Positions 7,274-46,388 of a stretch of 64,000 bases of DNA are shown here, in pieces; within the stretch, counting starts at the first letter, position 1; each line of letters opens with the position of its first letter. Made by a program: the position numbers and the translations under genes. The stretch spans positions 50,329,647-50,393,646 of the forward strand of contig CM028328.1 of NCBI GenBank assembly GCA_016647705.1, read 5' to 3'. Below the pieces are notes generated by a model that had not been told where the DNA came from, did not search any database, and saw only the letters and a list, made by a program, of their open reading frames with translations. Source of the DNA: Eucommia ulmoides (taxonomy: Eukaryota > Streptophyta > Magnoliopsida > Garryales > Eucommiaceae).

Positions 7274-9919
7274 TGTCACACCCCGTCCTGGGCACCCGTC
7301 ATGTAGGGCTGGCGTGACGTAGACATGAAACTGCCCAACTGACAAGCCAACCCCAATGACGTCATTAACAAAATTGTAAATCTATACAACACATATAATA
7401 GTCCCATCTGATAGGGATACACAGTCCTGAATATAAATACAATCAAACAAATTCCCTGAACCCCACTTAGATTTCATTTCCGATATCTCGTCTCCAAAAT
7501 TTTTCTTAAACTCCTTTGGGTGACTCGCATAACTCTATCTAGCGCTAGTTGGGGACCGATCGACTCCTAGCTATTTTATCTGCGAGTGTACTACCTTCTT
7601 AGTAAAAATATTTTTAAAATAATAATTCATTCTACAACATCTAAATGGATCAAGCGTGAATATAGAAACAACACATAACTAGTAAAATTCTCCATAATAT
7701 AAGCAGTGAGAATAAAGCAATAAATATAAGTTTCATTCCAACCCATCTAGTAAAATAATACCAATCACCATAGTAAAATAATAAATCACCCAATATAAGT
7801 AAAACATCCCATCTCAAACACACATCTCAAACCACCACTCCACCACAACACACACTGGCTAGCCATAGTGATCGTTTTAACCTCACGATCGGGAGTTTGC
7901 AACGGTACCATACCATCCGTAGGATATGCCTTCCTACAAACACACATCACTCCGCCGAAGCGGATAATCACTGCACAGTATAAACGTCTAACATCACTCT
8001 GCCGAAGCAGATAAACATCACTCCGCCGAAGCGGATCACATCACTCTGCCAAAACAAATAAATACTATGGCATCGACCAATCAATAACGTCATCATCAAA
8101 TCACAACTCAATAAATATTGACTACTCAACATCGTCAAATCACCATGTCTATCTCTTTTCCTCAAAACCAACTTTTAAATCTAAAAATTAGATTTCACAC
8201 TTTCTTTTAAAGAAAACGTCTGATTTTATCAAAACCACTTTTTCACCTTTGGTTTTTAGAAAACCAGGCATTTTTAGAAAAATAGATGTTTTCTATTCTC
8301 TTTTAAAAACATCGTTTGATTTTACCAAATCCAACAAAAAATCATTTTCAACTTCATTTCGAAATCCACCGAAATTTTCCGAAAATTCAGTTTACCAACT
8401 CACCCAAATCCTGCTTGATCCATATCATTTATAAATTCATACAGTTTAAGTAAACACGTATTTCGTCATATATATACATAAAAAAATTGTTTAGCAAAAA
8501 GACAGTACACTCACCTTGTTAACTGCTCTCTAAAACCTTCACTGACCACACTCTATCGAGACACCGATACCTGCGAGCCTAATAGTGACAGAGCCTAAAT
8601 TAATTTCTTATCTAAAACATCCGAATCATGCAATGCAGACCCTATATTTCGAATCGTTACTATTTTATGTACCACGTAATTAAAATTAATTAACCGTTAC
8701 GAAATTATTACGATTTTAGGAATTGTAACGCTAAATGAAAATTAATAAACGATTGAAATTTTACATGTTCCGAATCATCCATCGGCCATGAGATGAATTT
8801 TGGATTTTTGTTGGGGCTGTTTGTATATATTTATTTATTTATCCCTTTTTCTTTTGTTCTTCCTTTTTCCTTTTTTTTTTTCTATTTCCTTTTTCTGTTT
8901 GAGTTTCTTGTTCCGCAGATTGGGTTCTCGCCGGCATGCTCACGCCGATCAACAGCCTGCAACTTCACGCCCACACCGCAGCGGCTGACCGACGATACAC
9001 ACACACACACACACACACACTCTTATCGAACGACGGCGACGAATCACGCACCACCAGAGCGAACGACCACACCACCGCCGTCGACGTACACGCATACACC
9101 GAAACCCACCAGCCGACGACATTTTCTCTCTCACTAGTTCTCACTCACTGCCGGCCAAACGATCAACGGCGACACACACACACCAGAAACACGCACACCC
9201 ACAACTGAAACACAGACCCACAACTAAACCCACAAATACCCACGGACGACGTCCTACCGCCGGCAACCGCAACTGATCACGCACACACATACAGCAACGA
9301 CGACAACAGCCGGACGACGGAACAGCCCACTCGCACACGAAAGATCAAAAACATCCACCCGCACAGCCGACAAACCACCCAGCGATGATCACCCTCCGCC
9401 GGCCGACGTCACCACCGTCGATCCTCTCTCCCTCTCTTTCTCTAGATTTTTTTCTCTCATTTTCAGAATTGATTCGAGATCCTTGATCATGAGATTCTTG
9501 ATCCTTACACATGCATGATTTTAGTGGGTTGATTTAATCCGAGCGTGCCACGTCGCTGCTCTCTCTAATTCTTTGTCGGCCAGTTGCTCTTCCGATCGCC
9601 TGTTTATATATATGTATATATATAAAATAAATTTTTTTAATTAATTACTCTGTCCTCCCCCAACTTCCTTTAAACTTTGATTTTAATGCATTTCAACTTT
9701 TAAAAGTTTCTAAGATTTTCAATTTCACTCCCTGTGAGTTTCATTTAAAAGTTAAATGTCAATTTACCTCCCTAAGTTGGGATTTACTGTTTCTATATTT
9801 TCAATTTGACCCCTAGACTTTTTATTTGAATTTTTAATTGTCCTAAATTCACCCAGAATTTTCACAATTACTCTAAAATACAACTGAAATGACGTATATG
9901 CTACGATTGAGGTCTTACA
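7274..9919. mobile_element. Solo LTR of a gypsy-type (chromovirus-like) element
   Basis: It starts TGTCACACCCCG, ends GGTCTTACA, and is flanked by the perfect 5-bp duplication TATGT (7269-7273 and 9920-9924). No internal domain or second LTR is present, so at 2646 bp it reads as a solo LTR. The TGTCACACCC start and a short tandem motif around CCGAAGCGGAT (about 7950-8050) resemble long chromovirus (Tekay/Del-like) LTRs; that lineage is an inference. A CA repeat lies at 8998-9020. Low-complexity open frames at 8793-9338 come from the CA-rich composition and are not genes. Confidence 0.75.
8998..9020. repeat. (CA)n microsatellite
   Basis: A short run of about eleven CA units inside the solo LTR; CA-rich sequence continues interruptedly to about 9300. 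Confidence 0.9.
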
Positions 9920-10305
9920 TATGTCGGTTTGATAGTCACGTAGGCGGTGGAGAAGGTAGTGGATTCGGTGACTTCTCTATATTTTCACCGCCGCAACGGT
10001 AGATCTCACTGCTGCGGTGGTAGATGTTCAGCAAGAAAAACACCTCTCTGCATTTTCACCGCCGCGACGGTTGTCTGGACGCCACGGCGGTGGGTTTCTT
10101 TTTAGAATCTTGCCTCCATGCTTGTTTTTCCATCGTTCTCCGATATGTTTTGGTCCGAATTGATCATTTGCGTTCCGATTTCATACATTTTCACCCATAC
10201 ACCTGTTTTAATACAAAAAGAATAAAAACATATTAAAATGTACTAAACGTACTCGAAAACTAACAATGTTCGGTTGGGAAATAGATAGGTAATTTACACC
10301 TATCA

Positions 10306-19959: not shown

Positions 19960-19976
19960 CTCCCCCTCAAGCTAGG
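19960..19976 (-). other. Polypurine tract of copia element 1
   Basis: The minus strand reads CCTAGCTTGAGGGGGAG immediately before the LTR start TGTTG, as expected for plus-strand priming in copia elements. Confidence 0.8.
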
Positions 19977-21029
19977 GCGAAAATATTGATGAGTCTTAAC
20001 TTACCAATAGCTGATTGAAGGAAGAGATGGTCCTGTAGACTTAGTGAATATACAGCAGCCTGTTTTAAAAATGGAACGAAAGCAGGTATGATGATTCCTG
20101 ATCGGACTTTCTCACGAATGAAATGGATATCCACCTCGATGTGTTTTATCCTTTCATGAAAAACCGAATTTGAGAATAACATTATGGTAGACTTGTTGTC
20201 ACACAAGAACTTAGATGAGTTTCCCACGGAAAATCCTAACTCGGTCAAAAGGGAACGAAGGCAAAGGAGTTCACACGTTTCTTGAGCCATAGCGCGATAC
20301 TCAGCTTCAACAGAAGATCGGGAGACGACGGATTGCTTCTTACTCTTCCATGAGATTAGGTGTATTCCGTTAAAGGTGCACAGACTAGAGGTCGAACGTT
20401 TATCGTCCTTCGATCCTGAATATTCAGCATCTGTAAAGTAAGAGAGTCCCTCATGTGCCCTTGTCATATAGAAGAGACCTAGACCGGGACATATTTTGAG
20501 GTACCGAAGGATATGGTAGACAGCATCCGGGTGTGATATACGTGGTGAGTACATAAACTGGCTCACAACACTGACAGCATACGTAAGATCTAACCTTGTA
20601 TTAGTCAAATAAATGAGGCGGCCCACAAGTCGCTGATATACTGACGGATCTAATAATAATTCTCCCAAGTCTGCTATTAACTTAAGGTTCAGATCCATGG
20701 GAGTGGAGGCGAATCTATATCCAAGCATCCTAATGTCCTGAAGAAGATCAAGACTACATAAACTGGCTCACAACACTGACAGCATACGTAAGATCTAACC
20801 TTGTATTACTCAAATAAATGAGGCGGCCCACAAGTCGCTGATATACTGACGGATCTGATAATAATTCTCCCAAGTCTGCTATTAACTTAAGGTTCAGATC
20901 CATGGGAGTGGAGGCGAATCTATATCCAAGCATCCTAGTGTCCTGAAGAAGATCAATAGCATATTTTCGCTGGGATAGAGAGATACCTTTCCGAGACCGA
21001 GCAATCTCAATACTGAGAAGGTAGCAAAA
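19967..21029 (-). other. Copia element 1: reverse transcriptase C-terminal part and RNase H
   Basis: Minus-strand pieces read SLSQRKYAIDLLQDT and QRLVGRLIYLTNTRLDL (end of RT), then YFTDAEYSGSKDDKRSTS, SWKSKKQSVVSRSSVEAEYR and HIEVDIHFIREKV (RNase H). A 205-bp segment is tandemly duplicated here. The region is bounded on the right by the gypsy-type insertion at 21030. Fossil. Confidence 0.85.
20549..20958. repeat. 205-bp tandem duplication within copia element 1
   Basis: 20549-20753 and 20754-20958 are consecutive copies starting near ACATAAACTGGCTCACAAC. I count about three differences, so the duplication is recent relative to the element. Confidence 0.9.
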
Positions 21030-21034
21030 ATGAC
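21030..21034. other. Target site duplication of the inverted gypsy-type element (left)
   Basis: ATGAC here and at 32854-32858 flank the outer LTR ends of the 11.8-kb insertion in the copia reverse transcriptase. Confidence 0.85.
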
Positions 21035-22441
21035 TGAACGAGACCAATATTTCACATCTTAAAATACTCTCAAGTATAGGAGGTCAAGTTTTAATATAGG
21101 GGACCTTTTGATCGGATATCGTCCTCTGGGAAATGCATTTGATTAATTGAATACCGCAATTTGTATAGTCTTATATTATCCCGACGGTTCAAGAAATGTT
21201 TTAAGTTAAATATCCAAACTAAGTTAAACTAAAACTATTGGGTTAGTTCTAATTAAGTTGATTACCTAGAGATTGATTTCATTCACTAAATACATGAATG
21301 ACTTCGTTTAATTAACAATAATGGTATTTATTCTATCTGACAATCTCGGTATCTTCAACTCACTCGTCACCTCTCCCGAGTGTAAGATGAGTAAATATGT
21401 GACTTTGCGTCAACGAAGAAGTCCCCCTCGACATCTTAACGACACTAGGTCACATAACCCTTGTCCCAACTTCATGGATTGCACACTTTCTAACTCCTTT
21501 TCGGGTTATTAGATCGTTGCGTTGGGTTTATCTTAGTCCAAATCCGATGTTACCTCTCCTGAGTGTTAAACCCCGTATTTTGAAACTCAACCCTAATACC
21601 TTAACAATCATATTAAAGTTGTAATAGAACGATAACCACAATCGGATTTAGACAAATAACCGATAAAGAAACATATATTCAATCAAACAGGTATTTACAT
21701 GAATTACATCGATCCCTAGATAATATTTATCTAGTCTACCATGATCTTAGCCATTGAAACATTAAAACAAGAGGGATTCATTATCATTCACAATAAAATA
21801 TTAAGTTACAAATATAGAAATAAAGAAAGAAAGATCAAATCTTAAAGTAGAGTGGTCCATTGTCACCAAAGATCGATCCGAAAGTATTCCCTCTTTTCCA
21901 ATATGTGAATCTCCTCTTTGAGCTCTTCAAGAATGGCCCAAGATCAAGTGTCTAATGTTAGGGACGTCCCTCTACAAATTTTGGGGGGGGGGGGGGGGAA
22001 GGTTTAAATAGAAGGCTTCAAAATATCTGAAAAATATATATTCTCTGTACATAAGGACCGCCGCGGTGGTGGTTCACCACTACGGCAATGAACTAGGTCA
22101 GTTAACTTCACCGCTGCGGCGGTGAAGGCAGTATTGAGCTCTCTGGACTTTCACTGTCTCAGCGGTGAATGACCACTGCGGCGGTGCCTTTCTAACAATT
22201 CTCCCTACATCTCCACTGCCTTGGCGGTGGCCTGACCGCCGCGGTGGTGGGACTGTTGTCCTGAAACCTTGCTTCTTTAACCGTTTTTTTACCATTTTTC
22301 CACTACTTCGCTCCTTTATCACTTTGTCACGTCCCTGCACCTGATTTACATAAAAACAAATAAAAACACAATAAAATATTAGTAAAACACTCGAAAATTA
22401 CCAAATTCAGTTTAGAAGTAGATAGGTATTTAAACCTATCA
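21035..22441 (-). repeat. LTR A of the inverted gypsy-type element
   Basis: A 1.4-kb LTR ending CCTATCA at 22435-22441 and followed by the polypurine complement. It carries about seven GC-rich near-palindromes between 22055 and 22255 and a run of 16 G at 21983-21998. Open frames at 21321-21512 and 22098-22340 lie within the LTR and are not genes. Confidence 0.8.
21983..21998 (+). repeat. Poly-G tract (16 G)
   Basis: The equivalent place in the sister LTR copies reads TGGGGGAG (27849 and 32497), so the tract has expanded here or reflects an assembly artefact. Confidence 0.85.
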
Positions 22442-23969
22442 AATATCCCCAAATTTGAAATTTTGCTAGTCCTTGAACAAAACACCATAACACTAAAATA
22501 AACTAATTGTACTAACTAACAAACTAATTAACTACTAAAAATGAATAAACTTTAACAAAGAAGAGGTAAACACATGTGAGTTCCTAGTTCAATCGAGGAA
22601 ACCAAGTTGTTCCTCCCTCAGTAACCCTCAATCAGACCAAGTTCGGGAAATAACAAACACCAAGTGGTGTTCTAGAATTTCAACTCTCAATATCAATAAA
22701 AACCATTATAGATCCATTTAAAATGTATGTGTGAGAATTCAAATGTATAACTATCCGAACACCGGATTGGATTATTCAATAACTAAGCTCATGACTTAAA
22801 CCGTTTAAGGATTAGGAAAACCATATGCTTGACTGGGCTCGACTATCCACTAATGTAGGTTAGAAGTTCAAAGAGATCAATAGGGCTTGTATAGGCATTG
22901 GAGAACAGCCAAGGGTATCTCAGGAATAGAAAACAGGTCATTGTTATAATTACGATAATTCAACGATACCCGAGGCACAAACGCTTATCGCTATATCTTT
23001 CTCGTAACTCCAAATATTTAAAACATAACCCTGAACAAGATTTTAAGAACTTTGTATTCACTTGTCGAAAGAACGTAAATAACAACTATATTCACATAGT
23101 TTTTTTTTTCACCTAACACACCCCAAAACTTATTCGTTTTTGTATAATTTTAGGGGCGTGCAAATAAAATTCATAGATTGACAAGTGAATACACTAATAC
23201 CGAACCAATAAAAATTCGTCCGAAACCCACATGCTCACTTCAAGTAGCATAAAATAATGCTAACTTGATTTCACTCAATTCGTGCTTTTGTCTTAGCGAC
23301 AATGGTTTGGAAAATTTTTAATTGGCTATGGTTTTGATACATGTTCAGAATTGAAACGGTTATCATCTTCGACAGGGTAACGAGGGATAAAATTTTCAAG
23401 GTTAGCTTCAAAGGTTTAAGCGATAAAAATTAAGGCCTAAATCATGCCTCCTGAACTACCTTACCTAGAATTTCGCCTCAAGTTTCCCCCAGTCAAGTTC
23501 TAGATTCCTCAAATTTGTCTTGAATTTATTACTAAATAATTGGTGTCAAATCGTTTGAATGATTATACAATGAGTCTATGCTATCGTCCAATTTTGGATC
23601 AAAATGATTTTTACCTAATCGACATGTCAAGCACACAAAACACACATGAAAAGTATCACCCCCAACCTCGATATACAATAAGGGGATAATTTTCAGCATC
23701 GGGAAATGGCCTAGACGAACTCAATAACTCAACACGAAAATAGTACCTCATACATAAACATCTCTACATTAAATCTAAATATTAACATGCATACACTAAT
23801 CTAAGCATTTCACATGCAAAAACATGAAAATTAAAATATAACTTAATTATATGTTTAGACTCTACAATATACATCTAAACTTCTACAAAGCATAACTACG
23901 CATACATAAAACATCCAAATATAATACATCAAAAATTTTGTTTCAAAAATATTGTTCATCCTTTTCTAC

Positions 23970-24022
23970 AAAAAAAAAAAAAAAAAAAAAAAAGAAAAAA
24001 AAAAGAAAAAAAGAAAAAAAAA
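23970..24022. repeat. A-rich low-complexity tract
   Basis: Runs of A interrupted by single G or C. The inverted copy has only a short T-rich run at the same place (30121-30137), so the tract grew after the copies separated. Confidence 0.85.
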
Positions 24023-24179
24023 ACAAAAATGGATGAACATCCCCCCAAACTTAAACGAGGTAGTGTCCACACTGACTGAGCAGCGAACCCAATTGCAATA
24101 TATAGCATTCATGAGAAAAAATTGGGTTTGAACACATACCTAGAAGATAAGACATAGATGTCTCACCTCCTACTGTCCA

Positions 24180-25360
24180 CCTGGGGGAACGTCATCGCCA
24201 TCACTGTCGCATCTGAAAGGAAATTATGGTGGTTGCAAAAGGTGCGGTGGTAATTGCGACATAGGCGGATAACCGTTCATGTCAATGCCAAGGCGCTCAC
24301 AAATAAACCGGTGGACTTGATCTTGTTGACTCGTATGCTGATCCAGAAAAGCCCCGAGCTTAGTATTTTGAAGATCCGTATTATATTACCCCTGGCGAAT
24401 AACACGATTATCATCCCGGACCTCCTAGAGCTCCTTATAGACCCTCTCCAAAGTGACCTCATCGCTTAGATGGCCCCGCCTCTTCCTCTACAGGCCTTTC
24501 CTCTTCTTTAAATTCTTACTCCCCTGTCTCTTGCACTCTGGCTTTCCACATTCTATTTATCATAGCAAGATCGAGCAGAACGATTGGGGGGTAAGGGTTA
24601 TCCCCAGTTATCGATACACCGGCTCACGGAATAGGTCAGTCAAAAGCGAAGGAAATAGAAGATTGGCCTTTGTTGTATTGACGGCATAAAGAATAGAGGA
24701 GTATATCAAGTAGCTAACATTTATCGACTTACCCGTCTGGATCAAATATAGTGTCATGGCCCTTTCTTTGGATACGTCCAATAAGTGAGATGTCAGGAGA
24801 AGACTTCTGCAAACAAAATGGTGCCATATTTTGGGAATTGGATTGAGGAACTTTCCCAGGAATGTGGCTAGACCCGCCCCTGTGTGTGTCCATTGGACGT
24901 TTCCTGAAGTGATGGCTCAAATTACAATGTCTATACTCGGATCTCTGCCCCTATGTAGTTTGTTAATGAGTGCCGGGGCCGCCAATCCCAAAACTTCATT
25001 TAGGAACTCAGGTTTAAATGAGATAGGGCAAGTTCAGAACCCTTGTCCAGTTGTTATTTTCCTCGGTGATATTTACATAGAACTCCTGTACTAGAGCCAC
25101 CTCACCCCGAGGTGGTGATTTGAAAAAACGTTCCCAACTGTAGCTTCGGATCACATCTTGAAATTTTGGTGGGAGACTATGTAATTGCCCAAATTCCCAT
25201 TGTCAAATACAAGTTAGTTTATTCTCAAAACAGTTGAAATGTTCCTCGGCTTGTTTGGAAACAAAGCGTGCGAAATCATAGTGTACGGCAGGACCCCCAG
25301 TGCGAGAACTTGAACCTTCTCCCCTTGCCCTCTTTGATGTGTCTAGCTTATTCATATCTC
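24180..25360 (-). other. Decayed PF20167-like coding region (minus copy)
   Basis: This region is the counterpart of the plus-strand pieces at 28776-29780, matching them block by block in opposite orientation. The product family is found inside several non-autonomous plant retroelements; its biochemical role is not known. Fossil, broken. Confidence 0.6.
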
Positions 25361-26415
25361 CTATCAATCACAATCACAAAGCACGGCTACCCAATCATAT
25401 ATGAATAATGGAAAATAATCCCCCGAGTCGACACCGTCAAGAACACGTCACAATCTCAATACACACATACCAATCGCAACGGTTTCAACAAAATTTCAAA
25501 AATGTAGCATGCAATTTTGCATCACACAATGAAACAATGCATGGAAATATAGTTCATCACCAAAAATCAAACCAAAATCCCATAGATAAAGAAAATCGCA
25601 AAAATAGGGGTTCAAGGGTTTAGGGCACAATCCAAATTCAATGATTCATGATATGAATCTACAAATAACCAAAGATTTCAACAAATAGATGAAATGTAGG
25701 ATCCAAAGTACTTACTTGTTGAAGAAATTCGGTACAAACAATTAAAAATAGAAGAAATCACTCCTTTCGTTCCTTAAACCTAAGGATTTGAATATGGGGG
25801 GAAATCGATTTTTGGATGATAATTCGTGGTGGAAATCACAAATTTTGTAAATGGAAGGATGAATTTGTTGGTTGGAAACAGTTTGTGAGGATGAAAATGG
25901 AGAGATTTGGGGTTTTAGAAGTGGTTGTGGAGGTTTTAAAAACAAGCGGGGTTGTTTTAATCAAATAGAGGCTTCAGTGCCGCGGCAGTGGAGCGGCTTT
26001 TTTTCTAAACCCAAACTTTCTGTCGTTTCACCGCCTCGGCGGTGAAGTGCCTTTTTAAAATCTTTGCAACCTATTGTTTCACCGCCTCGGCGGTGAAGCG
26101 TTATACTGAAAACTTGACATCCTATATTTTCACCGCCTTGGCGGTGAGCCTCCTACTGGTTTTCCATTATTTCTTCAATTTTTCATAAAAAGACTCCACA
26201 ACATGCGTTTCTACTTTGCTAGTTCAACGATTTTAAGTGCGAAACACATCTTCGAGTATCTACACTCCTCAACTCACCTCCAAACAAGTTTTGACACCAT
26301 TTAGACCTCCAAAAAGTAAGTAGTAGCAAAAGTCGGGCAAGATCATGCCCTCGGTTTCATATAAAAAAAATACGCTTGATTTACCGTCCCCAGCTGGGCT
26401 TAGCAAATTGCAAGG

Positions 26416-26823
26416 TTAGTCGTCAACGAGGGAGATACTCTCCACAACTTGTTTTTCATTTCCAATATAGCACTTGATCCTCTCCTCATCACCTTCTAGT
26501 TTGACTGAACCAAAGGGAAATTTGCTTAATTCGGAACAGTCTGGACCATCCGCAAAAGGTGTGCTGGTTTTAGGTACGACTTTTGGTACATCCTTCAGTA
26601 CAGCTTCCATAGATAGGATGTAGTCCATAACACCTTCCTACGTGGTTAAGCATTTTTCACCAAAATCCCACATAGACAGGGAATTTGGGATAGTATGCTC
26701 AATTGGATCTCGATTCAATGCTTGAATTTGGCTTATTCTTATCATTTTCAGGGTACGCTCAATCTCGGGATCAAAGGTCAAGAATTCCAAACTTCTTTTT
26801 CGTCGCATGCACTGCTTGATCAC
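26416..26823 (-). other. Gag-N-terminus-like remnant
   Basis: Two minus-strand pieces, at 26638-26823 and 26416-26628, lie just downstream of the primer site. The first contains LTFDPEIERTLKMIR, a block I associate with the start of gag-like proteins of plant gypsy elements. Fossil, broken. Confidence 0.55.
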
Positions 26824-26890
26824 AACTAATTAAACAAATAAAAAAATATTCAACCACTTAGTCGCAATATCAACCAAATCAAAATATCGT

Positions 26891-26908
26891 TCCCCGGCAA
26901 CAGTGCCA
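26891..26908 (-). other. Primer binding site (tRNA-Asp type)
   Basis: The plus strand reads TCCCCGGCAACAGTGCCA, the tRNA-Asp 3' end with two substitutions. It adjoins LTR B, which starts TG at 26915. Confidence 0.8.
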
Positions 26909-26914
26909 AAAACT

Positions 26915-27982
26915 TGGACGAGACTAATGTTTCACGTGTTAATATACTCGCAAGTGCACGAAGTCAAGTTTTAATATAGTGGACCTTTTGATTGGATATT
27001 GTCCTTTGGAAAACATGTTTGATTAATTGAATAACGAAATTTGCATAGTCTTATATTATCCCAACGGTTCAAGAAATATTTTAAGTTAAATATCTAAACT
27101 AAGTTAAACTAAAACTATTGGGTTAGTTCTAATTAAGTTGTTTACCTAGGGATTGATTTCATTCACTTAATACATGATTGACTTCGTTTAATTAACAATA
27201 ACGGTATTTATCATATCCGACAATCTCTGTATCTTAAACTCACTCACCACCTCTCTCCGAGTGTAAGATGAGTGAATATGTGACTTCGTGTCAACAAACA
27301 AGTCCCCCTTGACATCTTAACAACACTAGGGCACATGACTCTTGTCCCAACTTCATGGATTGCACACTTTCTAACTCCTTCCTGGGTTATTAGATCGTCA
27401 CGTTGTATTTACCCAAGTCCGAATCCAGGGTTACCTCTCCCAAGTGTTAAATCTCGTATTCTCAAAACCAACTCTAATGCCTTAACAGGCATATTAAAAT
27501 TGTAATAGAACGGTAACCACAATCAGATTCATTAAAGAAACATATATTCAATGAAACATGTATTTACATGAACTACATCGATCCCTAGATAATATTTATC
27601 TAGTCTACCATGATCTTATCCATTGAAACATTAAACCTTGAGGGCTTCAAAATCATTCACAATAAAACGTTAAGTTACAAATATAGAAATAAAGAAAGAA
27701 AGATAAAATCTTAAAGTATAGTAGTCTACTGTCGCCAAAGATTGATCCGAAAGTGTTTTCTCTTCTCTGATATGTGAATCTCCTCTTTGATCTCTTCAAG
27801 AATGACCTAAGATCAAGTGTCTAATGTTAGGGACGTCCCTCTACAAATGGGGGAGAAAAAGATTTAAATAGAAGGCTTCAAAAATATGAAAAATAGATAT
27901 TTTCTGCACAGAGAGACTGCCTCAGCGGTGGTTCACCACTGTGGCAGTGAACTAGGTCAGTTAACTTCACTGCTATGGCAGT
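26915..27982 (-). repeat. LTR B (3' part)
   Basis: It aligns with 21035 onward of LTR A until about 27982. There the sequence passes directly into internal sequence of the opposite orientation, beginning near CGCACAGCCGAGGTGG. Confidence 0.75.
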
Positions 27983-30900
27983 AACGCACAGCCGAGGTGG
28001 TAAAATAACACAGGATGTAAGGTTTTTCAGCAAAACGCCTCACTGCCGAGGCGGTGAAACAACAGGTTGCAATGTTTTTTTAAGGTGCTTCACCGCCGAG
28101 GCGGTGAAATGATAGACTGTTTGGATTTAAAAAAAAAAAAAAAAGGCATTCCACCGCAGCGGCGGTGAAACCTCTGTTCGATTAAAACCATCCCGCTCAT
28201 TTAAACCGCTATAACCACTTCTAAAATCCCAAATCTCTCTATTTTCGTCCTCCCAAATCATTTCCAACCCACAAATTCATCCTTCAATTTACAAAATTTG
28301 TGATTCCCACCACGAATCATCATCCAAAAATCGATTTCCACCCCATTTTCAAATTCTAGGGTTTAAGGAACAAAAAGTGCGATTTCACCATTTCCAATCG
28401 TTTGGACCAAAATTTTTCAACAAGTAAGTATTTTTTATCCGATATTTCATCTATTTGTTGAAATCTTTGGTTGATTTGCATATTTATATCAATAATCATT
28501 GAATTTCGATTGTGCCCTAAACCCTTAAACCCTATTTTTGCGATTTTCTTTATCTACACAATTTTGGTCTGATTTTTGGTAATGAAAAAGATTTCTATGT
28601 ATTGTTATATTGTGTGATACAAAATTACATGTTACATTGTTGATATTTTGTGGAAACCATTGCGATTGGGGTGTGTGTGTGTATTGAGATTGTGACGTGT
28701 TCTTAACGGTGTTGATTCGGGGGATTAATTTCTATTGTTCATACATGACTAGGTTGTCGTGTTTTGTGATTGTGATTGATAGGAGACATGGCTAAGCGTG
28801 CCGCATCAAAGAGGTCTAGGGAAAAAGGTTCAAGTTCTTGTACTATGGGTCCCGCTGCGGACTATGATTTCGCCCGCTTTGTTTCCAAACAAACTGAGGA
28901 ACATTTTAACCATTTTGAGCATAAACGGACGTGCATTCAACAACGGGGATTTGGGCAATTAGACAGTCTACCGCTAGAATTTCAAGATGTGATCCGAAGC
29001 CACGGTCCAAAACGTTTTTGCAAATCACCACCCCGGGGCGTGGTGGCTCTGGTGCGGGAGTTCTATACAAATATCACTGAGGCAAATGACTACTAGACAA
29101 GGGTCCAAACTCACCCCATCTTATTCAATCCCGAGTTCCTTAATGATGTTTTGGGATTGGCGGCCCGAGAACCATCTTACGAACCATATGGGGGTAAAGA
29201 CCCAAGCATGGACACTGTGATCCGAGCTATCACTTCAGGAAATGTCCAGTGGACACACACAGGGCCAGGTCTAGCCACATTCCAAGCTAAGTTCCTCAAT
29301 CCAATCCCCAAAATATGGAACCATTTTGTTTGCGGAAGTCTTCTCCTGACATTTCACTTGTCGGACATCTCTAAAGAAAGGGTCATGACGCTATATTTGG
29401 TCTAAACGGGAAATCCGATAAATGTTGGCTACTTGATCTACTCTTATATTCTTCATGTTGTCAATACAACAAAGGTCAGTCTTCCATTTCCTTCGCTTTT
29501 GACTAACCTATTACGACGAGCCGGTGTATCAGTAACTAGGGAAAGCCCTTACCCCCCAATCGTTCTGCTCGATCTAGCTATGATAAATAGAATGTGGAAA
29601 GCTGGAGCGCAAGGGGTAGGAGAGCAAGAAACTGGCGAAGATGAAGGGCCTATAGAGGAAAAGGCGAGGCCATCTGAGGCCCACGGTGAGGTCACTTTGG
29701 AGAGGGTCTATAAGGAACTCCACCAGGTCCGAGTTGATAATCATGTTCTTCGACAAAGGCAATATAATATAAATTTTTGAATTGCCAAGCTCAGGACGTT
29801 CCTGGATTAGTATACGTTTCAACAAGATCAAGTCAACTGACTCATTTGTAAGCGCCTCAGCATCGACATGAGCGCTTATTCGCCTATGCAGCAATTACCG
29901 TCGCACCTTTTGCAACCACCACAATTTCCTTTCAGACGCGACAATGGTGGCAATGACGTTTTCCCAGGTGGACAGTAGGAGGTGAGACGTCTATGTCTTA
30001 TCTCCTAGGTATGTGTTCAAACCTAATATTTTCTCATGAATTCTATATATTGCGATTGGGTTCGCTGCTCAGTCAGTGTGGACACTACCTCTTTTAAGTT
30101 TGGGGGGATGTTCATCCATTTTTGTTTTTTTGTTTTTTTGAAGAAAATGATGAACAAAAGTTTTGAAACAAAACTTTTGTTGTATTATATTTGAATGTTT
30201 TAAGTATGCGTAGTTACGCTTTGTAAAAGTTTAAATGTATGTTGTAGACTTTAACATTTAGTTATGTTTTGTTTAAATTTTTGTGTTTATGCATGTGAAA
30301 TGCGTAGATTAGTGTATGTATTTTAGTGTTTAGATTTAATGTAGAGATGTTTATGTATGAAGTAGTATTTGCATGTTGAGTTATTGAGTTTATATGGGCC
30401 ATTTTCAGATGATTGAAATTATCCTCTAATTGTATATTGAGGTCGAAAATGATGCTATTCATATGTGTTTTGTGTGCTTAGCATGTTGATTAGGTAAAAA
30501 TCTTTTTTATCCTAAATCGTACGATAGTATAGACTCACTATATAATCATTCGAACAATTTGACGTCAATTATTCAGTAATAAGTTCATGACAAATTTGAG
30601 GAATCTAGAACTTGACCGGAAGAAACTTGAGGCGAAATCTTAGGTGAGGTAGTTCAGGAGACATGATTTAGGCCTTCATTTTTATCGCTTGAACCTTTGA
30701 AGCTAACCTTGAAAATTTTATCCCTCGTTACCCTGTCAAAGCCGATAACTGTTTCAATTCTGAACATATATCAAAACCATAGCCAATTAAAAAAAAAAAA
30801 AAAAATCCAAACCATTGTCGCTAAGCCAAACGCACGAATTGAGTGAAATCAAGTTAGCATTATTTTATGCTACTTGAAGTAAGCAGGCAGGTTTTAGACG

Positions 30901-31672
30901 AATTTTTCTTGGTTCGGTATTAGTGTGTTCACTTGTCAATCTTAGAATTCTATTTGCACGCCTCTAAAATTGTACAAAATCAAATAAGCTTGGGGGAGTG
31001 TTAGTTTGTTGGAAAAAAAAAAAAACTATGTGAATATAGTTGTTATTTACGTTCTTTCGACAAGTGAATACAAAGTTCTTAAAATCTTGTTCAGGGTTAT
31101 GTTTTAAATATTTGGAGTTATGAAAGAGATATAGCGACAAGCGTTTGTGCCTTGGGTATCATTATATTATCGTAATTATAGCGATGACCTATTTTCTATT
31201 CCTGAGATACCCTTGGCCGTTCTCTAATGCCTATCCAAGCTCTATTGATCTCTTTAAACTTCTAAACCTACATTAGTGGATAGTCGAGCCCAGTCAAGCA
31301 TATGGTGTTTCTAATCCTTAAACGGTTCAAGTAATGAGCTTAGTTATTGAATAATCTAATCTGGTGTTCAGATAGTTATACATTTGAATTCTCACACACA
31401 CATTTTAAATGGATCTAGAATGATTTTTATTGATATTGAGTGTTGAAATTCTAGAACACCACTTAGAGTGTGTTATTTCCCGAACTTGATCTGATTGAGG
31501 GCTGTTGAGGGAGAAACAACTTGGTTTCTTCAATAGAACTTGGAACTCGCATGTGTTTACTTCTTCTTTGTTAAAGTTTATTCATTTTTAGTAGTTAGTT
31601 AGTACAGTTAGTTTATTTTAGTGTTAGGGTGTTTTGCTCGAGTACTAGCAAAATTCCAAGTTTTGGGGTATT
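27983..31672 (+). mobile_element. Inverted second copy of the internal region
   Basis: The complement of 22442-26160 is matched here in order: four GC-rich near-palindromes (27985-28165), the noncoding stretch before the coding region, the PF20167-like coding pieces (28776-29780), the TTTGGGGGGATGTTCATCC block (about 30098), and the polypurine tract ending at 31672. It lacks a primer site of its own. Fossil, broken. Confidence 0.75.
28776..29780 (+). other. PF20167-like coding remnant (plus copy)
   Basis: Plus-strand pieces at 28776-29096, 29151-29405 and 29433-29780 carry blocks such as DFARFVSKQTEEHFN, ALVREFYTNITEAND and a C-terminal charged stretch with VTLERVYKELHQVR. The start and the FYTNI block fit the putative plant transposon protein family (PF20167) seen in non-autonomous plant retroelements. 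Fossil, broken a few times; family assigned from memory. Confidence 0.6.
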
Positions 31673-32248
31673 TGATAGGTTTAAAATACCTATCTACTTC
31701 TAAGACGAATTTGGTAGTTTTCGAGTGTTTTAGTAATATTTTATTGCGTTTTTGTTTGTTTTTATGTAAATCAAGTGTAGGGACGTAACAAAGTGATAAA
31801 CGAGCGAAGTGGTGAAAAAACAGTGAAAGTCCAGTGAGCATGCCAGTCTCACCGCCGAGGCGGTGAAAGTCCAAAGAGTTCAATACAGCCTTCACTACCG
31901 TAGCGGTAAGGTTGACTGACCTAGTTCTCCGTCACAGCAGTGAATTACCATCGAGGCGGTCCCTCTATGCAGAAAATATCTATTTTTCAGATATTTTGAA
32001 ACCTTCTATTTAAACCTTTTTCTCCCCCATTTGTAGAGGGATGTCCCTAACATTAGACACTTGATCTTGGGCCATTCTTGAAGAGCTGAAAGAGGAGATT
32101 CACATATCGAATAAGAGGAAACACTTTCAAATCGATCTTTGGCGACAGTGGACCACTCCACTTTAAGATTTAATCTTTCTTTCTCTGCTTCTATTTTTGT
32201 AACTTAACGTTTTATTTTGAATGATGATGAATCCCTCTTTGTTTTAAT
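31673..32248 (+). repeat. LTR part, plus orientation (left arm of LTR palindrome)
   Basis: Starts TGATAGGTTTAAAATACC directly after the polypurine tract TTTTGGGGTATT. It is mirrored by 32249-32853, so the two form a head-to-head LTR palindrome with a short centre at about 32247-32280. Confidence 0.8.
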
Positions 32249-32853
32249 CTAGCCTACCATGATCTTAGCCATTGAAACATTAAAATAGGAGGAATTCATC
32301 ATCATTCGCAATAAAACGTTAAGTTACAAAGATAGAAACAAAGAAAGAAAGATCAAATCTTAAAGTAGAGTGGTCCACTGTCGTTAAAGATCTATCCGAA
32401 AGTGTTTCCTCTTCTCCGATATGTAAATCTCCTCTTTGAGCTCTTCAAGAATGGCCCAAGATCAAGTGTCTAATGTTGCAGACGTCCATCTACAAATGGG
32501 GGAGAAAAGGTTTAAATAGAAGGCTTCAAAATATCTTAAAAACAAATAATTTATGTACAGATAGACTGCCTCAGCGATGGTTCGCCACTACGGCGGTGAA
32601 TGACCGTTGTGGCGGTACCTTTTTCTCAATTCTCCCTGCATCTCCACAGCCTCGGCGGTGGGACTGCTGTCTTAAAACCTTGTTTCTTTGACCATTTTTT
32701 CACCATTTTTCTATCGATTCGCTCATTTATCACTTTGTTACGTCCCTACACCTGATTTACATAAAAACAAACAAAAACGCAATAAAATATTACTAAAACA
32801 CTCGAAAACTACCAAATTCGGTTTAGAAGTAGGTAGGTATTTTAAACCTATCA
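32249..32853 (-). repeat. LTR part, minus orientation (right arm of LTR palindrome)
   Basis: This is the U3 half of the LTR, ending CCTATCA at 32847-32853 followed by the duplication ATGAC (32854-32858). GC-rich near-palindromes lie at about 32565-32665. Confidence 0.8.
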
Positions 32854-32858
32854 ATGAC

Positions 32859-35500
32859 CCAAATCCTTGATGTCAAAAGTCTGTTTGAGATCTTTCTTTA
32901 CCTGTTGAATGTTAGGTGTGTCGTCTCTTGTGATAATAATGTCATCCAAATACACTGAGATAATGATGCACCGTCCCTAGTGTCGGCAACGGATAAAGCA
33001 AGTATGATCTGAGTGACACTGGGTAAAACTCATAGTGCGGATGGCTTCGCTGAATCGACTGAACCATACACGAGGATATTGCTTAAGTCCATAAAGAGAT
33101 TTTTGGAGTCGACAAATTTTGCCAGAATACTCCCTCTGAGTCCGAAATCCTGGTGGAGGCTCCATATAGATAGTCTCAGTCTGGTCACCATTAAGGAATG
33201 CATTCTTAACATCCAACTGGTACGGAGGCCAAGAATGGGATGCAGCCAATGAAATAAGGAGTCGAACAGTAGTCAACTTAGCAACCGGGGCAAAGGTGGC
33301 ACCAAATTCTTTACCCGGGATTTGTGTGTAGCCCTTAGCAACAAGTCATGCTTTGTACCGATTAATTGATCCATCAGCTAGATATTTGACATTGAGGACC
33401 CACTTACAACCAACTGTCCACTCACCAATTAGCAATTCAACCAGGTCCCATGTCTGATTCCGCTATAGGGCATCCATCTCTGCTTGCATAGCGGTAACCC
33501 ACTTTGGATTCTGGAGGGCCTCATGAACGGAGCAAGGAATGACAACCGAATCAATTTGTCCAATGAAGGATATATATTTATCTGAGAGATCCTAAAAAGA
33601 CAAATACTTGGAAATCAGATGAATAGTAGAACATGAAATAAGGTAGCGGGATGGTGGGTGACATTCCTGAGTCAGGTAACGATGGGGAATAGGGTCAGAG
33701 ATAATAAGAGAGAGAGATATACCTGAGTCCGAAGAAGATGTCGGCAAGGGATGTGAGACACGTAGATGACGAGAGTATATTCGTAAGGGAGCTGGTGAAG
33801 GGTCAGGTGGTAGGTGTGATATGGGCGGGAAAGATATATCTAAGACAGGGATAGGACACAGAAGTGGGGTATGATCCTCGGTAGTGGCTGCCTCAATATG
33901 TGGAGAAAGTACAGTACCAAAAACGTAGGGGTACAGTCTCGAGGAACGTAACATCAATAGAGTGGTAAGTACAGTGGGTAATTAGATTGTAGCACCTATA
34001 TCCTTTAGACATGGTGGAATAGCCAAGAAAGATACACCGAATAGATTTATCATCAAACTTGGTTCGGGTGGGGCTTCGATTTTAGACAAAACATGTACAG
34101 CCAAAGACACGATGTAAGATAGGAAACAAAGTGTGAGTAGGGTGTAGTCTATGAAGAGAGGTTTTACCTATAAGAACATGACTCAGGGTGCGATTAATGA
34201 CATAGGCAGCAGTAAGAACTACCATGTGCCAGAAAGATTTGGGAACATTCATCCCCCGTAAAAGACAACGAGCGACAGACATAAAGTGACGGTTACATTC
34301 TGTTTAGGAGTGTAGGGATAGGTAACTTGTTGAAGGATACCTTGCTTACTAAGCTTAGCTCAAAAGTCATCAGATAAGTATTCCCGTCCGTTATCAGACC
34401 AGATATTGCACACGACTGTTTTGTACTGGGTTTTTATCATTTGAAGAAAGTGAGTAAAGTGTGTATAGACCTCTGATTTGTGTTTCATCAGATAAATCCA
34501 AGTACATCGACTATCATCATCTACGAAAATGACATAGTAACGGTGTTTGGAAATAGCGGTGACAGGAGAAGGCCCCCAAATATCAGAGTGGATAAGATCA
34601 AAGGCTTGGGGTGCACGGTGCATGCGAGGAATATAAGAAGCGTGTGTGTGTTTAGACAATTCACAGACCACACGTTGAAATTTAAAGTCATTGTAAGCTT
34701 TTCTAAGAAAGGAAAACAACCAACATAAATACTAAAAATTCGCATGTCCTAGACAGGTATGCCACAAGTTTAATTTTTTTAATGAACATATAGAAGGATA
34801 AAAAAATAGGTAACGTAAAGGCGTGCATAATAGAAGGTGGTACGGTTGGAGATGGAGGATTCCCAAAGCAATAGAGACCACCGTGTTCGTATCTCCTACG
34901 AAGAATCTTCCTCGAAGTCAAGTTCTGCAAGAAGCAACAGTCATGTAAGAAAACAACGGCACAGTTAAGATTCTTAGTAAGGTGACTAACAGATAGAAGG
35001 TTATAAGCAAATTTAGGGATATAGTAAACAGAGTGAATGGTAATATCATAGGATAAACATGCATCGCCTTGACACGAATAGGGATAAAGGTACCATCTGC
35101 GATGCACACAGATTGATTAACAAATGAGACAGGAGAAGTAAAGGTAGAAAGCTCACCCCTCATGTGATTGTTGGCCCCAGAATCCAAAATCCAAGTGGAA
35201 TAACCAGACTTACCATGAAGCGTAGTAGGAGTACCTGAGGTAAGAACAACTGTAGGGCCGGAAGACAATGCCAAATTGGTGAACTGAGCCTAAAGCCAGG
35301 GCAATTTGGGCCTAAACTTGGGAAAGATTCAGGTGAGCAGATGGTGGATCTACCAAACCGAAAACGATATTTTATTTTCTGAATGCCATGGCTATAAGAC
35401 TGTAACAGTGACACAATAGACAAATGTTGCTGAAAAACCAACTTGGTTCTAGAGAAAAGTTCTGCAACTGCAATTGTCGTCAACATTCGAAGAAGTTCTC
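32859..35500 (-). other. Copia element 1: gag/protease, integrase and N-terminal RT
   Basis: Minus-strand pieces: TYWLDV-type RT start with YQLDVKNAFLNGDQTETIYM (32977-33276), an integrase core with FDLIHSDIWGPSPV, and WSDNGREY (34360-34719), a continuation with ARCLLRGMNVPKSFW (34082-34282), and an aspartic-protease region with WILDSGANNHM (34918-35274). This is the order gag-PR-IN-RT of Ty1/copia. Fossil, broken. Confidence 0.85.
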
Positions 35501-42481: not shown

Positions 42482-43713
42482 TCAAAGTAACATATGAAGA
42501 CAATGTTACACGCATTTTGTCCTACTCATTTAAGTTTTCAAAAATATTAGGTCTAAAGTGCAAATAAGAATAAACTTTAAACTAAGGTTTAAAATGAACA
42601 AATTTCTGCCTTAGATTACATTTGATACTACAAAAGAACAAAAAACATAAAATCGTCAATTTGATTGAAATTTTGTATAAACAAAAGTTTCAAGTCAATT
42701 TCGAAATTCTTAAAATTTAATAGGGACTAAAATGACCATATTAGAAGTAGATTTTCTATGAATATCACTTCTAATATGTGTGTTGCTACCATTTAATTTA
42801 ACCAAATTTCAACAATTACATTACTTTCCATTTTGACCTCTATAATTTTCGTTTCCACTGGTTTTGTCTAATTGATAACAAAAAATATTAGTTTAATTTT
42901 CTTGTTTGAAGTATTAATTTCCTAAATCAAGCAATAAATTCTTGATTAGAAAAATAGATGCCCAAGACACCAAGAGTACTAAAGACACACCCTTCTAAGT
43001 TTAATAAAAATATAGATTCTTTCACTGTTGTGCCCTTAGCAAAGTTGGTATTAAATTCAAGTATTTAGTGAGTATCCTATAGAAAGATATCATCCATAAG
43101 AATACCATCATAATTCATTAAATGTAGCATTAAATGAAGTCATAAATGGTATTTAATGAAGCAATCTTATGGGCGAGTTGGTGCATAAACCATCCCATGA
43201 TGATAAAATATCATCATTCCATAGGTATTTAGTGTCTAAACTTAGTCTAAACAAGACTTCATCATGGATAAACATGTAACAGCATTAAATGTCATTAAAT
43301 AAAACAATAAATGCATGCTTTAAATGGGCAATATCTTGGCAAGATTTTTAAGCAAAATCTCATGATGAAACCTTGGGTAATTAGTGCCTACAAACCTAAC
43401 TAAACTAGCTTCCATCATAACAAAGTATTAAATACCCACTAAATCATGCATTAAATTATACATTAAATGGCATTGATGGGGCATTATAGGGCATTTAATA
43501 TCAAGATTTGGCAAGATTTTGTTCATCATGACAAAATCATCATGACTACCTACATGTGCCTAGGTGAATCTTGATCATTGCCTAAGGATTCTAGCCATAA
43601 ATGGCATTAAATGGCCTTAAATGGTATTAAATAGCTAAATAAAACAGGTTGGCTATGCATGCGCACTCCCCAATGCACAGGCATGCCTTTGCCTATAAAA
43701 AATAGTCTGTTTT
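42481..43713. other. Non-coding stretch rich in CATTAAATG motifs
   Basis: From about 43080 to 43640 the words ATTAAATG and GGCATTAAATGGC recur irregularly with CATCATGA. No gene is seen. A TATA-like CCTATAAAAAATAG lies at about 43691-43704, just before the tandem duplication, so this may be the U3 of an old LTR. Confidence 0.5.
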
Positions 43714-44213
43714 CATTTGAAACAAACCTTTTCCAGAAGACTTCTCTCTCTAGGCTCGAATTTCTCTCTCAGGTCCTTTGATTTCTTATGCTTTCTACCT
43801 CTCAAACATACTCAAATCCTTCCAAAAATGCTCTTAAAAGATGTTCTTGATACTCTTATAACAAGAGTTTAAGATCTTCAAGAATAACCAAGCAAAAGGA
43901 AGAAGATGTTAAAGTAGGAGAAGTAGGAAAAACACTTAGAGAAAAACTACTCCCCTAAGTTCATTTGAAACAAACCTTTTCTAGAAGACTTCTCTCTCTA
44001 GGCTCGAATTTCTCTCTCGGGTCCTTTTATTTCTTATGCTTTCTACCTCTCAAACACACTCAAATTCTTCCAAAAAAGGCTCCTAAAAGATATTATTGAC
44101 ACTCTTATAACAATACTTCAAGAAGATCTTCAAGAACAACCAAGCAAAAGGAAGAAGATACTAAAGTAGGAGAAGTAGGAAAGCCACTTAGGGAAAGACT
44201 ACTCCCCTAAGTT
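43714..44213. repeat. 247-bp tandem duplication
   Basis: Copy 1 begins at 43714 (CATTTGAAACAAACC) and copy 2 at 43961. Both end with CTACTCCCCTAAGTT. The copies differ at scattered positions. Each carries CTTCTCTCTCTAGGCTCG and a purine-rich AAGGAAGAAGAT block. The position just downstream of a TATA-like box would suit a transcribed leader. Confidence 0.85.
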
Positions 44214-45858
44214 AGAATTTTTTTTTCTTAAACTCCGCTTTAAGTTTTGTTTGTTTAATATCATTTCTTTGTTTATACATAATATTCTTTGGTTGTTCTT
44301 AGTGTCTTAGGTCTTGTATATAGTGTTTATATAACTTGTTTGTGTGAAGAACAACAAGAATACTATGGTATATGTATAACATCTTTGGCCTTTGCCAAGA
44401 ACACATGAAATCGAACTCAATGAACTTAAAATAAATCACCGATGAAGGATTACTAACGATGAACAACTAACATTTACTTTTCTCGCTCTGCGTCTTTCCA
44501 CGCTAGCCTAGATCTACATCTCAGGTTTGTGGACGGGCATCTTTATATATATAAGCCTAAATCATGGACTGACCCTACATTTCAGATCATGGACTGGCAC
44601 TCTTTTATGTATTATTATGTCTAGACCCTTGTGGCTAAAAGTTGGAATAAATAGAGGACCTTTATTCCTTTGAGGATAAGTGTTCGCCTTCTTCAGAAAC
44701 ATTTCCTTCTTCTTAGTTACGCGTAGGACTGACACTATATTCTATGTTTTCGTTTAGTTTAGACTAACGAAATAAACCTTAACACAAAACTTGCCTAAGC
44801 AAGTAAGTTTGGCTGGAATATTCTTAACAAAATCAAACGTACATATCGTTTACTATTTGTGTCATGTTTGTTCTTACTTTCTTAAATAATACTAATAAAA
44901 ATAAATAAATAAACAATTCACAAGAGTTTTTTCAACATAAAAACACCTTGTGTTTACTCTAAAAAATAAATCTTTGTCTACGTATAATATTTTCATAATT
45001 AAAATATATTTTATATGCCTTGTCTTAATTAAATGTTTCTATAAAACTTTTTGCTATATTTAAAACAGGTTTTCCACATTCCTATAAAAAAACGAGTTTT
45101 CAAATGTTTTACTCTTTTTTTTCTCTTCAAAAATAAATAAACTGGTTTTGTTAAGTGTCCAAATAAAACTCCCCCACCCCCTCCCCGGCGGACTAAATTT
45201 GTCGATTCTTCGATAATCAATAGTCGGTCTAAAGGGGAACGTTTGTTCTTTGTTTTCAATGTGTTTTATCTGTTGCTGCTTTTTATAAAATAATTTTTTC
45301 TTACTATCTTACATATAAATTAGATAAACATCCAAGGGAATTAGTGTATTAACCAAAACCGAAGAAAATTTCTTGGACTAGTTTAAATGTAAAGATCTAT
45401 TTAAACTTAGGTACTATCTTCGAAAGGGTGTCTTGAGGTGCCTAACACCTTCCCTGAATATAACCAACCCCCAACTTTAAAGGAATCTCTTATAAAGAAC
45501 TATTGCTTTCGAGTCAAAATTTGGGCCATTTTTAAAACAAAATGATTTTTTAAAGTTCTAGTGACCTAGCACGCCATTTAACTCAATGCTATGTGGCGAT
45601 TCCATTTTTCAAATAAATCCCGGCTCAAATAACGTTTTCTAAACCGGCACCTAGAAAATCCCCTAAAACTTTATTTTCTAAAATGACTGATTTTTTAGGA
45701 TTTCGGGATGGAAGAAACCAAACCGTGTTTTCCTCTTTTCTCACTTTCTTTTCTCTCTTTTCCAAAATCTGGGGTGCGTTAGTCATCTCTCATTGAAGTT
45801 TGAAGCCAAAGATTACCAATAAGCTTAAAGAAGATCTTCAAGTACTTTGTCTGATTCT
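44214..45858. other. Probable old LTR/leader remnant, non-coding
   Basis: No gene. The stretch 45420-45780, with GGTGCCTAACACCTTCCCTG, GTGACCTAGCACGCC, TCAAATAAATCCCGGCTCA and GGGTGCGTTAG, resembles leader and LTR-end sequence of plant gypsy elements as I remember them. No domain confirms it. Open frames at 45029-45259 and 45779-45967 are unsupported. Confidence 0.35.
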
Positions 45859-46388
45859 GATGACATACGTATATTGATGCAAAAACACAGTATCGCTTGC
45901 ACAAACCCAACAAATTTTTCAAAGTTAAAATTGGATGAAAATTTTGATTTGGAAAGTTAGAGCGCATACAGTGTCAGAAAAATCCCTTCGAATGTCTAGA
46001 TGATTTTTGGGACAGAAGGCTATGCATTGGGATGGTCTAACCAACCATTTAGACGCCTAGTCTGATGCCTCAAATTGTTTAAATAATCATTTAGAACGTC
46101 CAAACAGTAGCACATACAGTGTTGATGAGATACATATATTAATGCAAAAACACTGTATCACTTGCACAAACCCAACACATTTTTCAAAGTTAAAATTGGA
46201 TGAAAAATTTGATTTGGAAAGTTAAAGCGCGTACAGTGTCTAAAGCATCCCTTCAGATATCTAGATGATTTTTGGACAGAGGGCTATGCGTTGGGATGGT
46301 CGAACCAACCATTTCGACGCCTAGTCTGATGCCTCAAATTGTTCAAATAATCATTTGGAGCGTCCAAACGGTAGCACACCACCTTGAT
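45859..46388. repeat. 265-bp tandem duplication
   Basis: Copy 1 begins at 45859 (GATGACATACGTATATTGAT) and copy 2 at 46124 (GATGAGATACATATATTAAT). Common blocks include GCTATGC[A/G]TTGGGATGGTC, GACGCCTAGTCTGATGCC and GTCCAAAC[A/G]GTAGCAC. The copies differ at many positions, so the event is not recent. Confidence 0.9.

Follow-up and report, generated by a model that had tools for sequence, protein, structure and literature searches.

How a retrotransposon that integrated as a single piece of DNA can carry a large inverted stretch of its own family's sequence within one of its long terminal repeats (LTRs) is the question raised by an insertion in the genome of Eucommia ulmoides. The insertion, an LTR-retrotransposon of 11.8 kb whose sense strand is the minus strand, occupies positions 21035-32853 of the window, the whole stretch of 64,000 nucleotides that was analysed (contig CM028328.1). 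It is probably a chimera, formed when reverse transcription switched templates between two co-packaged RNAs, and integrated once into a Copia element. An original prediction, made from the letters of the window alone, had described one insertion containing an inverted copy of itself, and had named template switching, self-priming, autointegration of the complementary DNA (cDNA) and a nested copy as possible origins.

Comparison of the window with itself, the dot-plot check that the prediction had proposed, reveals three relationships within the insertion: a direct LTR pair (21035-22123 and 26915-27982, 86.0% identity), an inverted match of 3.9 kb (22287-26146 and 27987-31828; 3,902 aligned columns, 84.4% identity, E = 0) and a head-to-head palindrome (31657-32869). 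The inverted match, which has 86.4% identity when counted over 3,649 ungapped sites, is not a product of chance. The minus strand is taken as the sense strand because a sequence like a primer-binding site (PBS) adjoins LTR B and a sequence like a polypurine tract (PPT) adjoins LTR A; the former we take to resemble the 3′-end of tRNA-Asp. LTR A is therefore the 3′ LTR, and LTR C, an inverted block and LTR B together make up the 5′ LTR. The parts of the insertion and of the interrupted host element are as follows.

19967..21029, minus strand: downstream half of the host Copia element, with the end of its reverse transcriptase and an RNase H-like frame recognized by eye
21030..21034: target-site duplication ATGAC, left copy
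21035..22441, minus strand: LTR A, the complete 3′ LTR, about 1,407 bp, TG...CA (boundary placed by eye, with the target-site duplication and the PPT side as guides)
22442..22457, minus strand: PPT-like sequence CAAATTTGGGGATATT (minus strand), assigned by resemblance
22442..26914, minus strand: main internal region (M), ~4.47 kb, carrying degraded frames of PF20167 (Transposase_32)
26890..26908, minus strand: PBS-like sequence TGGCACTGTTGCCGGGGAA, read by eye
26915..27984, minus strand: LTR B, the inner part of the split 5′ LTR, LTR positions ~317-1407
27983..27987: junction J1, where LTR B passes into the inverted internal arm, between palindromic units at 27968-27983 and 27987-28002
27987..31672, plus strand: inverted internal arm (IC), homologous to M from internal position ~769 to the PPT
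31673..32248, plus strand: inverted LTR piece, LTR positions 1 to ~681
32247..32250: junction J2, the fold-back, where the inverted LTR piece meets the direct LTR C
32249..32853, minus strand: LTR C, the outer part of the split 5′ LTR, LTR positions 1 to ~712
32854..32858: target-site duplication ATGAC, right copy
32859..33957, minus strand: upstream half of the interrupted reverse transcriptase of the host Copia element, with an RVT_2 match at 32980-33276

Read in the sense direction, the insertion thus begins with LTR C (positions 1 to ~712), turns back through the inverted LTR piece (~681 back to 1), the inverted PPT and internal sequence as far back as position ~769, resumes with LTR B (~317-1407), and continues through the PBS, the whole internal region and the PPT to the whole of LTR A. 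The split is confined to the 5′ LTR, and the 3′ LTR is intact. The inverted block, which consists of LTR sequence and 3.7 kb of internal region (27987-32248), lies between LTR C and LTR B, and about 396 bp of LTR (positions ~317-712) occur twice, once in B and once in C. It had been claimed that LTR B turns into opposite-strand internal sequence at about 27982 and that the LTR meets itself head to head near 32250; both changes of direction are present, at 27984-27987 and at 32248/32249. The claim of a large inverted copy of the element itself holds for the existence of an inverted block. It does not hold for its extent, as the copy is partial (LTR positions 1 to ~681 of 1,407, with 576 bases remaining, and ~3.69 of 4.47 kb of internal region), or fully for its identity, as the internal arm on the J1 side looks like another member of the family.

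The outer ends of the insertion are proper LTR termini (TG...CA, at 21035 and 32853) with ATGAC on both sides. When the flanks are joined with one copy of ATGAC, a Copia reverse-transcriptase frame runs through the site without a stop for 132 codons (39 ahead of the join, and 93 counted from the joining codon; KDL-G-HFCYLLSIE), and other stops of the host frame lie farther out. The upstream Copia piece matches RVT_2 in Pfam (E 1.4e-25), and two pieces of the downstream half run against Pfam gave no match. The matching duplication and the empty site with its open frame mean that the 11.8 kb arrived as a single piece or else underwent later rearrangement strictly within its ends. A single insertion event within one ATGAC duplication, as the prediction had it, is thus supported. 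The host Copia element beside the insertion also contains an abutting tandem duplication of 205 bp (20547-20751 and 20752-20956, 98% identical), which by its divergence would be much younger than the insertion.

Both internal joins fall at inverted repeats. J1 joins LTR position 317 to internal position 769 and sits (27984-27987) between two palindromic units of the form CACCGCC-NN-GGCGGTG, a unit that makes up 3.7% of the element when up to 4 mismatches are allowed. J2 joins LTR position 712 to LTR position 681; its arms extend over 235 nt at 88% identity, with 37 nt between the ungapped arms, a loop of ~31 nt by hand alignment and a 2-nt microhomology (AT) common to both templates. The corresponding site in LTR A is a 19-nt hairpin, CTAGATAA, with perfect 8-bp arms (21716-21734). 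The junction sequences contain no LTR terminus at either J1 or J2, and no inner 5-bp target duplication was found at the joins (AGTAA versus CTAGC, with no common 5-mer nearby), which argues against products made by an integrase.

The same 947 Mb assembly, in which the window lies at C4:50329647-50393646, was searched with probes spanning the joins, the counts from these searches being lower bounds. Full-length matches were found at this locus only, among the best 40 of 3,822 first-look candidates for the 261-bp J2 probe and the best 40 of 1,166 for the 271-bp J1 probe, and every other match listed extends past the join by at most ~22 nt. Of 67 foreign loci, among which at least 16 repeat the same place, two have opposite-strand family hits alongside direct ones; these two were rejected as similar chimeras, their opposite-strand hits being 73-76% matches beside an ordinary LTR. 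Clusters of the palindromic unit are found in the 3′ unique region of the LTR (U3) and at the 5′-end of the internal region (22056-22249, 25975-26146, 27915-28167, 31850-31961 and 32564-32660). LTR A, LTR C and the inverted LTR piece differ through losses between such units, which may be hot spots of deletion and switching.

All four LTR pieces, the inverted one included, most likely derive from a single source. In a tree with 20 other genomic LTRs (from foreign loci where 900 or more LTR bases matched) they form one clade (support 91/88, not starred), although the foreign LTRs were picked by likeness to A, B and C or the inverted piece, a bias against recovering that clade. A transversion test was based on sites where the pieces disagree while both states recur in several other copies. 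At a threshold of 2 the mean for the four pieces is.0027 per site, compared with a median of.0134 in random foreign quartets, none of 400 of which was as low; a threshold of 3 had the same outcome (.0012 versus.0089). Pair by pair over the whole LTR, at a threshold of 2, between 0 and 7 of the 190 foreign pairs are as low.

The internal arms present a different picture on the J1 side, where at least the first 1.3 kb of IC is most likely derived from a second element. IC ranks only twentieth among the best 39 other genomic matches of M over 1.2 kb. For comparison of the arms, 46 foreign loci with 2,000 or more matched bases were reduced to 30 by removal of 16 duplicates. Over the first 1,400 columns M and IC differ by 22 polymorphic transversions, whereas 24.0 are expected of a random pair and 6.0-11.5 of a pair from the same source (Poisson probability of 22 under the latter, 4e-7 to 0.004). 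The same-source expectation uses a ratio of 0.25 to 0.48 that is our own estimate from the LTR pairs, of which three of six gave 0 at a threshold of 3, and which reached up to 0.51 at a threshold of 2. Thresholds of 3 and 5 for the internal arms, and of 2 and 3 for the LTR, were tried in deciding which sites counted as polymorphic; with either value the J1 side stayed near random pairs. In trees of the J1 side, M groups with two foreign copies (L028 and L045; 93/86) and IC with three others (L069, L036 and L030; 92/70), and forcing M and IC together costs 22-25 log-likelihood units in the J1-side ranges. Over columns 1400-3369 the count is intermediate (13, compared with 19.8 for random and 4.9-9.5 for same-source pairs); the PPT side of the inverted arm may come from either element, and parts of it may share their source with M.

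With regard to timing, the prediction placed the event before or at integration and proposed that the divergence of the inverted copies be compared with that of the LTRs. The two are about equal: divergence is 13.6% over 3,649 sites for the arms and 12.3% over 1,069 for LTRs A and B (Fisher p 0.28), and the ratio standardised by CG/CHG/CHH context is 1.04 (95% range 0.87-1.25). The end branches of the LTR pieces are also similar (A.077, B.073, C.066, inverted piece.070). These comparisons support an origin of the structure before or near integration. The divergence ratio alone was dropped as a proof of simultaneity, since the family is star-like and the listed copies are as near to LTR A as LTR B is (87-90% identity to A for other genomic copies listed, 89% for B). 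Among the four LTR pieces the two-against-two patterns number 2, 6 and 6 compared with 15-23 private sites in 342 common columns, so that the pieces themselves also form a star.

Divergence between the arms is not uniform. In the last ~1 kb before the PPT (~22443-23450 and 30650-31672) it is ~0.63 times that of the rest after correction for context, and none of 300 simulations was as strong; this kilobase may be a module that is conserved or was shared more recently. Gene conversion is not needed to account for it, since other family copies are equally close there: M and IC are 89.1% identical, compared with 89.8% and 88.0% for two foreign copies that span it whole, and the genomic matches of M listed for it have 86-90% identity (best 40 of 8,853 candidates, with the inverted arm not among them). 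Against dropping gene conversion is the rank of the M-IC pair in columns 2800-3369, which is 0 to 4 of 28-30.

LTR pieces from one source, combined with an internal arm that appears to come in part from another element, fit a strand that moved between two packaged RNAs. The order of switches that we infer would start with the reverse transcription of two RNAs, one from a non-autonomous, probably Athila-like element and the other from a related member of its family. Plus-strand strong-stop DNA would begin normally at the PPT and copy U3 to LTR position ~712, at the short hairpin, where the strand would fold back on itself (loop ~31 nt) and copy its own U3 backwards to the PPT. The end of the strand, now complementary to U3 and the PPT, could then transfer to the second RNA and copy ~3.7 kb of internal sequence as a minus strand. 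A switch at a palindromic repeat would return it to the LTR template at position ~317, the rest of the LTR and the PBS would be copied, and a normal second strand transfer would finish the chimeric DNA, which would integrate once. This route predicts a whole 3′ LTR and two outer termini proper for integrase, as observed. The structure thus agrees with the template switching named in the original prediction; of its self-priming, the fold-back start at one join is retained, whereas self-priming by itself is not, the internal arm on the J1 side not looking M-like. A minus-strand excursion at the end of 5′ LTR synthesis was also considered; with the element's own minus strand as template it would make the arm M-like, which the J1 side does not appear to be, unless a second minus strand was used.

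Several results weigh against this account. On a 350-bp core the four-LTR clade is recovered in only 28 of 200 FastTree bootstraps, against an ultrafast bootstrap value of 88 for that core, and in the stretch common to all four pieces the pairwise transversion test does not separate A-B from foreign pairs (79 of 190 are as low, threshold 2). The approximately unbiased (AU) test does not reject M and IC as sisters at the 0.05 level in all four J1-side ranges (p.057,.086,.162 and.075) and in two further ranges within columns 1400-3369 (p.46 and.38), and M-IC is among the closest pairs in three of ten windows of the alignment (columns 1400, 2800 and 3150; ranks 0 to 4 of 28-30). The star-like family makes ages coarse, such that an event up to ~13% of the element's life after integration may also fit, and in one three-way count the private changes of the inverted LTR piece are the most numerous (50 versus 32 and 29).

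Among the alternatives, an early rearrangement after integration is the nearest competitor, although an unlikely one. Here a process resembling fork stalling and template switching or microhomology-mediated break-induced replication (FoSTeS/MMBIR) in the 5′ LTR would have copied the inverted stretch from another copy and then returned. The same geometry is expected (an inverted copy, a return upstream, ~396 bp on both sides, microhomology and palindromes), the timing permits an event within up to ~13% of the element's age, and the AU test leaves M as a possible template. A template in the element's own 3′ half, however, would have given an arm with the sequence of M, and the part next to J1 does not appear to have it; an ectopic template would have brought an inverted LTR piece of a source foreign to A, B and C, yet all four appear to share one. 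One more switch and an early date would be required as well. It is improbable that a tandem dimer (LTR-internal-LTR-internal-LTR) formed and that its middle was later inverted, sequence being lost at one breakpoint and duplicated at the second. With the block turned round the locus does read as a damaged head-to-tail dimer, and complexes with three LTRs are known (PMC1950507), but this history requires the inversion of a dimer together with the loss of ~1.46 kb and the gain of ~0.36 kb, as opposed to two or three template switches, and the copies are without clear age difference.

A misassembly that joined unrelated copies at 27984 or 32249 has a marginally smaller chance of being right than the dimer. 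The family has thousands of first-look candidate places and the joins lie at palindromes; against this, the pieces differ by 12-17%, so that overlap mis-joins are unlikely, the joined flanks restore the target-site duplication and an open frame, and LTR pieces on either side of the joins share a source. The nested copy of the prediction, in which a second family element, oriented the other way, entered the 5′ LTR and lost parts to later deletions, deserves slightly less credence still. The orientation and the different internal sequence next to J1 are as it would have them, but no inner target duplication is present, the inverted block has no LTR terminus at either end, and the left join needs an LTR position of at least ~707 and the right one of at most ~317, which is impossible for one insertion; in addition, LTR positions 317-712 (~396 bp) are present on both sides, and the inverted LTR piece shares the source of the host element. 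Autointegration of the cDNA into itself, also among the origins first proposed, is the least credible of all: such events are known for retroelement cDNA and give inverted products, but integrase joins an LTR terminus (CA-3′) to an internal target, and neither J1 nor J2 has one.

Template switching between packaged RNAs, the origin preferred here, has precedents in several systems. Template-switched complexes in the Triticeae, rice and maize have one pair of target-site duplications, three LTRs and two complete cores, and two co-packaged RNAs were proposed as their source (Sabot and Schulman 2007, PMC1950507). The present insertion resembles them in having one such pair around more than one element's sequence and outer LTRs of one source. 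It differs in that their text describes an internal LTR, two complete cores and no inverted unit, whereas the second core here is partial, inverted and inside the 5′ LTR; their outer LTRs are called highly homologous, while LTRs A and C here are 87.2% identical (609 sites), making this insertion older. In Arabidopsis, co-packaged members of the Onsen family undergo pairwise recombination (Sanchez et al. 2017, PMC5668417), but the mosaics, as far as the main text of that report goes (in which neither 'inverted' nor 'inversion' occurs), are not inverted, as the arm here is.

Among proviruses of human immunodeficiency virus type 1 (HIV-1), a retrovirus, the relevant part of one survey gives 1.3% (n = 1) with genomic inversions and 1.3% (n = 1) with inversions and a deletion, and attributes asymmetric LTRs to two packaged RNAs (PMC9278108). 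These, like the Eucommia insertion, are rearranged proviruses that integrated; a head-to-head LTR with an arm from a second RNA, in a plant element, distinguishes the present case from what is described in that part. HIV-1 minus-strand strong-stop DNA also primes on itself in connection with a stem-loop, according to the portion of PMC4668388 that concerns it; that strand is the minus strand at the trans-activation response element (TAR), whereas plus-strand strong-stop DNA would be involved here, with a product that integrated. The locus unites known features (template-switched complex, RNA recombination, inversion and self-priming) in one inverted form, and is not a new kind of element. Among the titles and abstract openings listed by a literature search, with several of its lists capped and subscription journals largely outside it, none concerned a plant LTR element with an inverted second-RNA arm inside one LTR.

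The consequences for silencing depend on the arms, which have 86% identity and 24 perfect runs of at least 21 nt (the longest 105) and could pair as an imperfect duplex. Transcripts through the arms are conceivable because a TATA-like motif, at LTR position ~433 in A, is also found in B, C and the inverted piece. Inverted repeats of the Muk type that produce small interfering RNA (siRNA) yield small RNAs from both arms; siRNA production from the arms of the present locus is a guess from their sequence. A wider proposition is that plus-strand strong-stop DNA of plant LTR elements can fold back, prime minus-strand synthesis on a second packaged RNA, return to its own LTR and still complete second strand transfer, and that such excursions at LTR palindromes might be a regular source of kilobase inverted-repeat loci able to silence their family; we regard it as tentative and are inclined to doubt it. 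The locus reads as an integrated record of an inverted switch between two co-packaged RNAs, with switch points legible to a few bases. If such loci recur, errors of reverse transcription would be linked to inverted-repeat silencing loci, although the weight of a single old locus is moderate.

As to the family of the element, seven internal frames (three from the inverted arm, four from M) were run against Pfam; four match PF20167 at E ≤ 3.4e-4 (the strongest, E 1.7e-17, at 24611-24916), one is weak (0.052) and two have no match. The part of the Athila literature bearing on this domain ties PF20167 to an additional open reading frame of Athila (PMC11728184). No reverse transcriptase or integrase was found among the seven frames, which are a part of all internal frames. 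The PF20167 frames, together with a PBS presumably of tRNA-Asp type, suggest a non-autonomous, Athila-derived Gypsy element. Scans of the window for Rfam families and for tRNAs were both empty. Diverged stretches related to the element (~68-79% identity), with direct repeats at 79-1958/4007-5825 and 2147-2569/2606-3029, are present at window positions 1-10305 and are perhaps an older nest. Other direct repeats, unrelated to the insertion, are located at 43712-44213, 45858-46378 and 56139-57556 (~91%, 90% and 83% identity, respectively).

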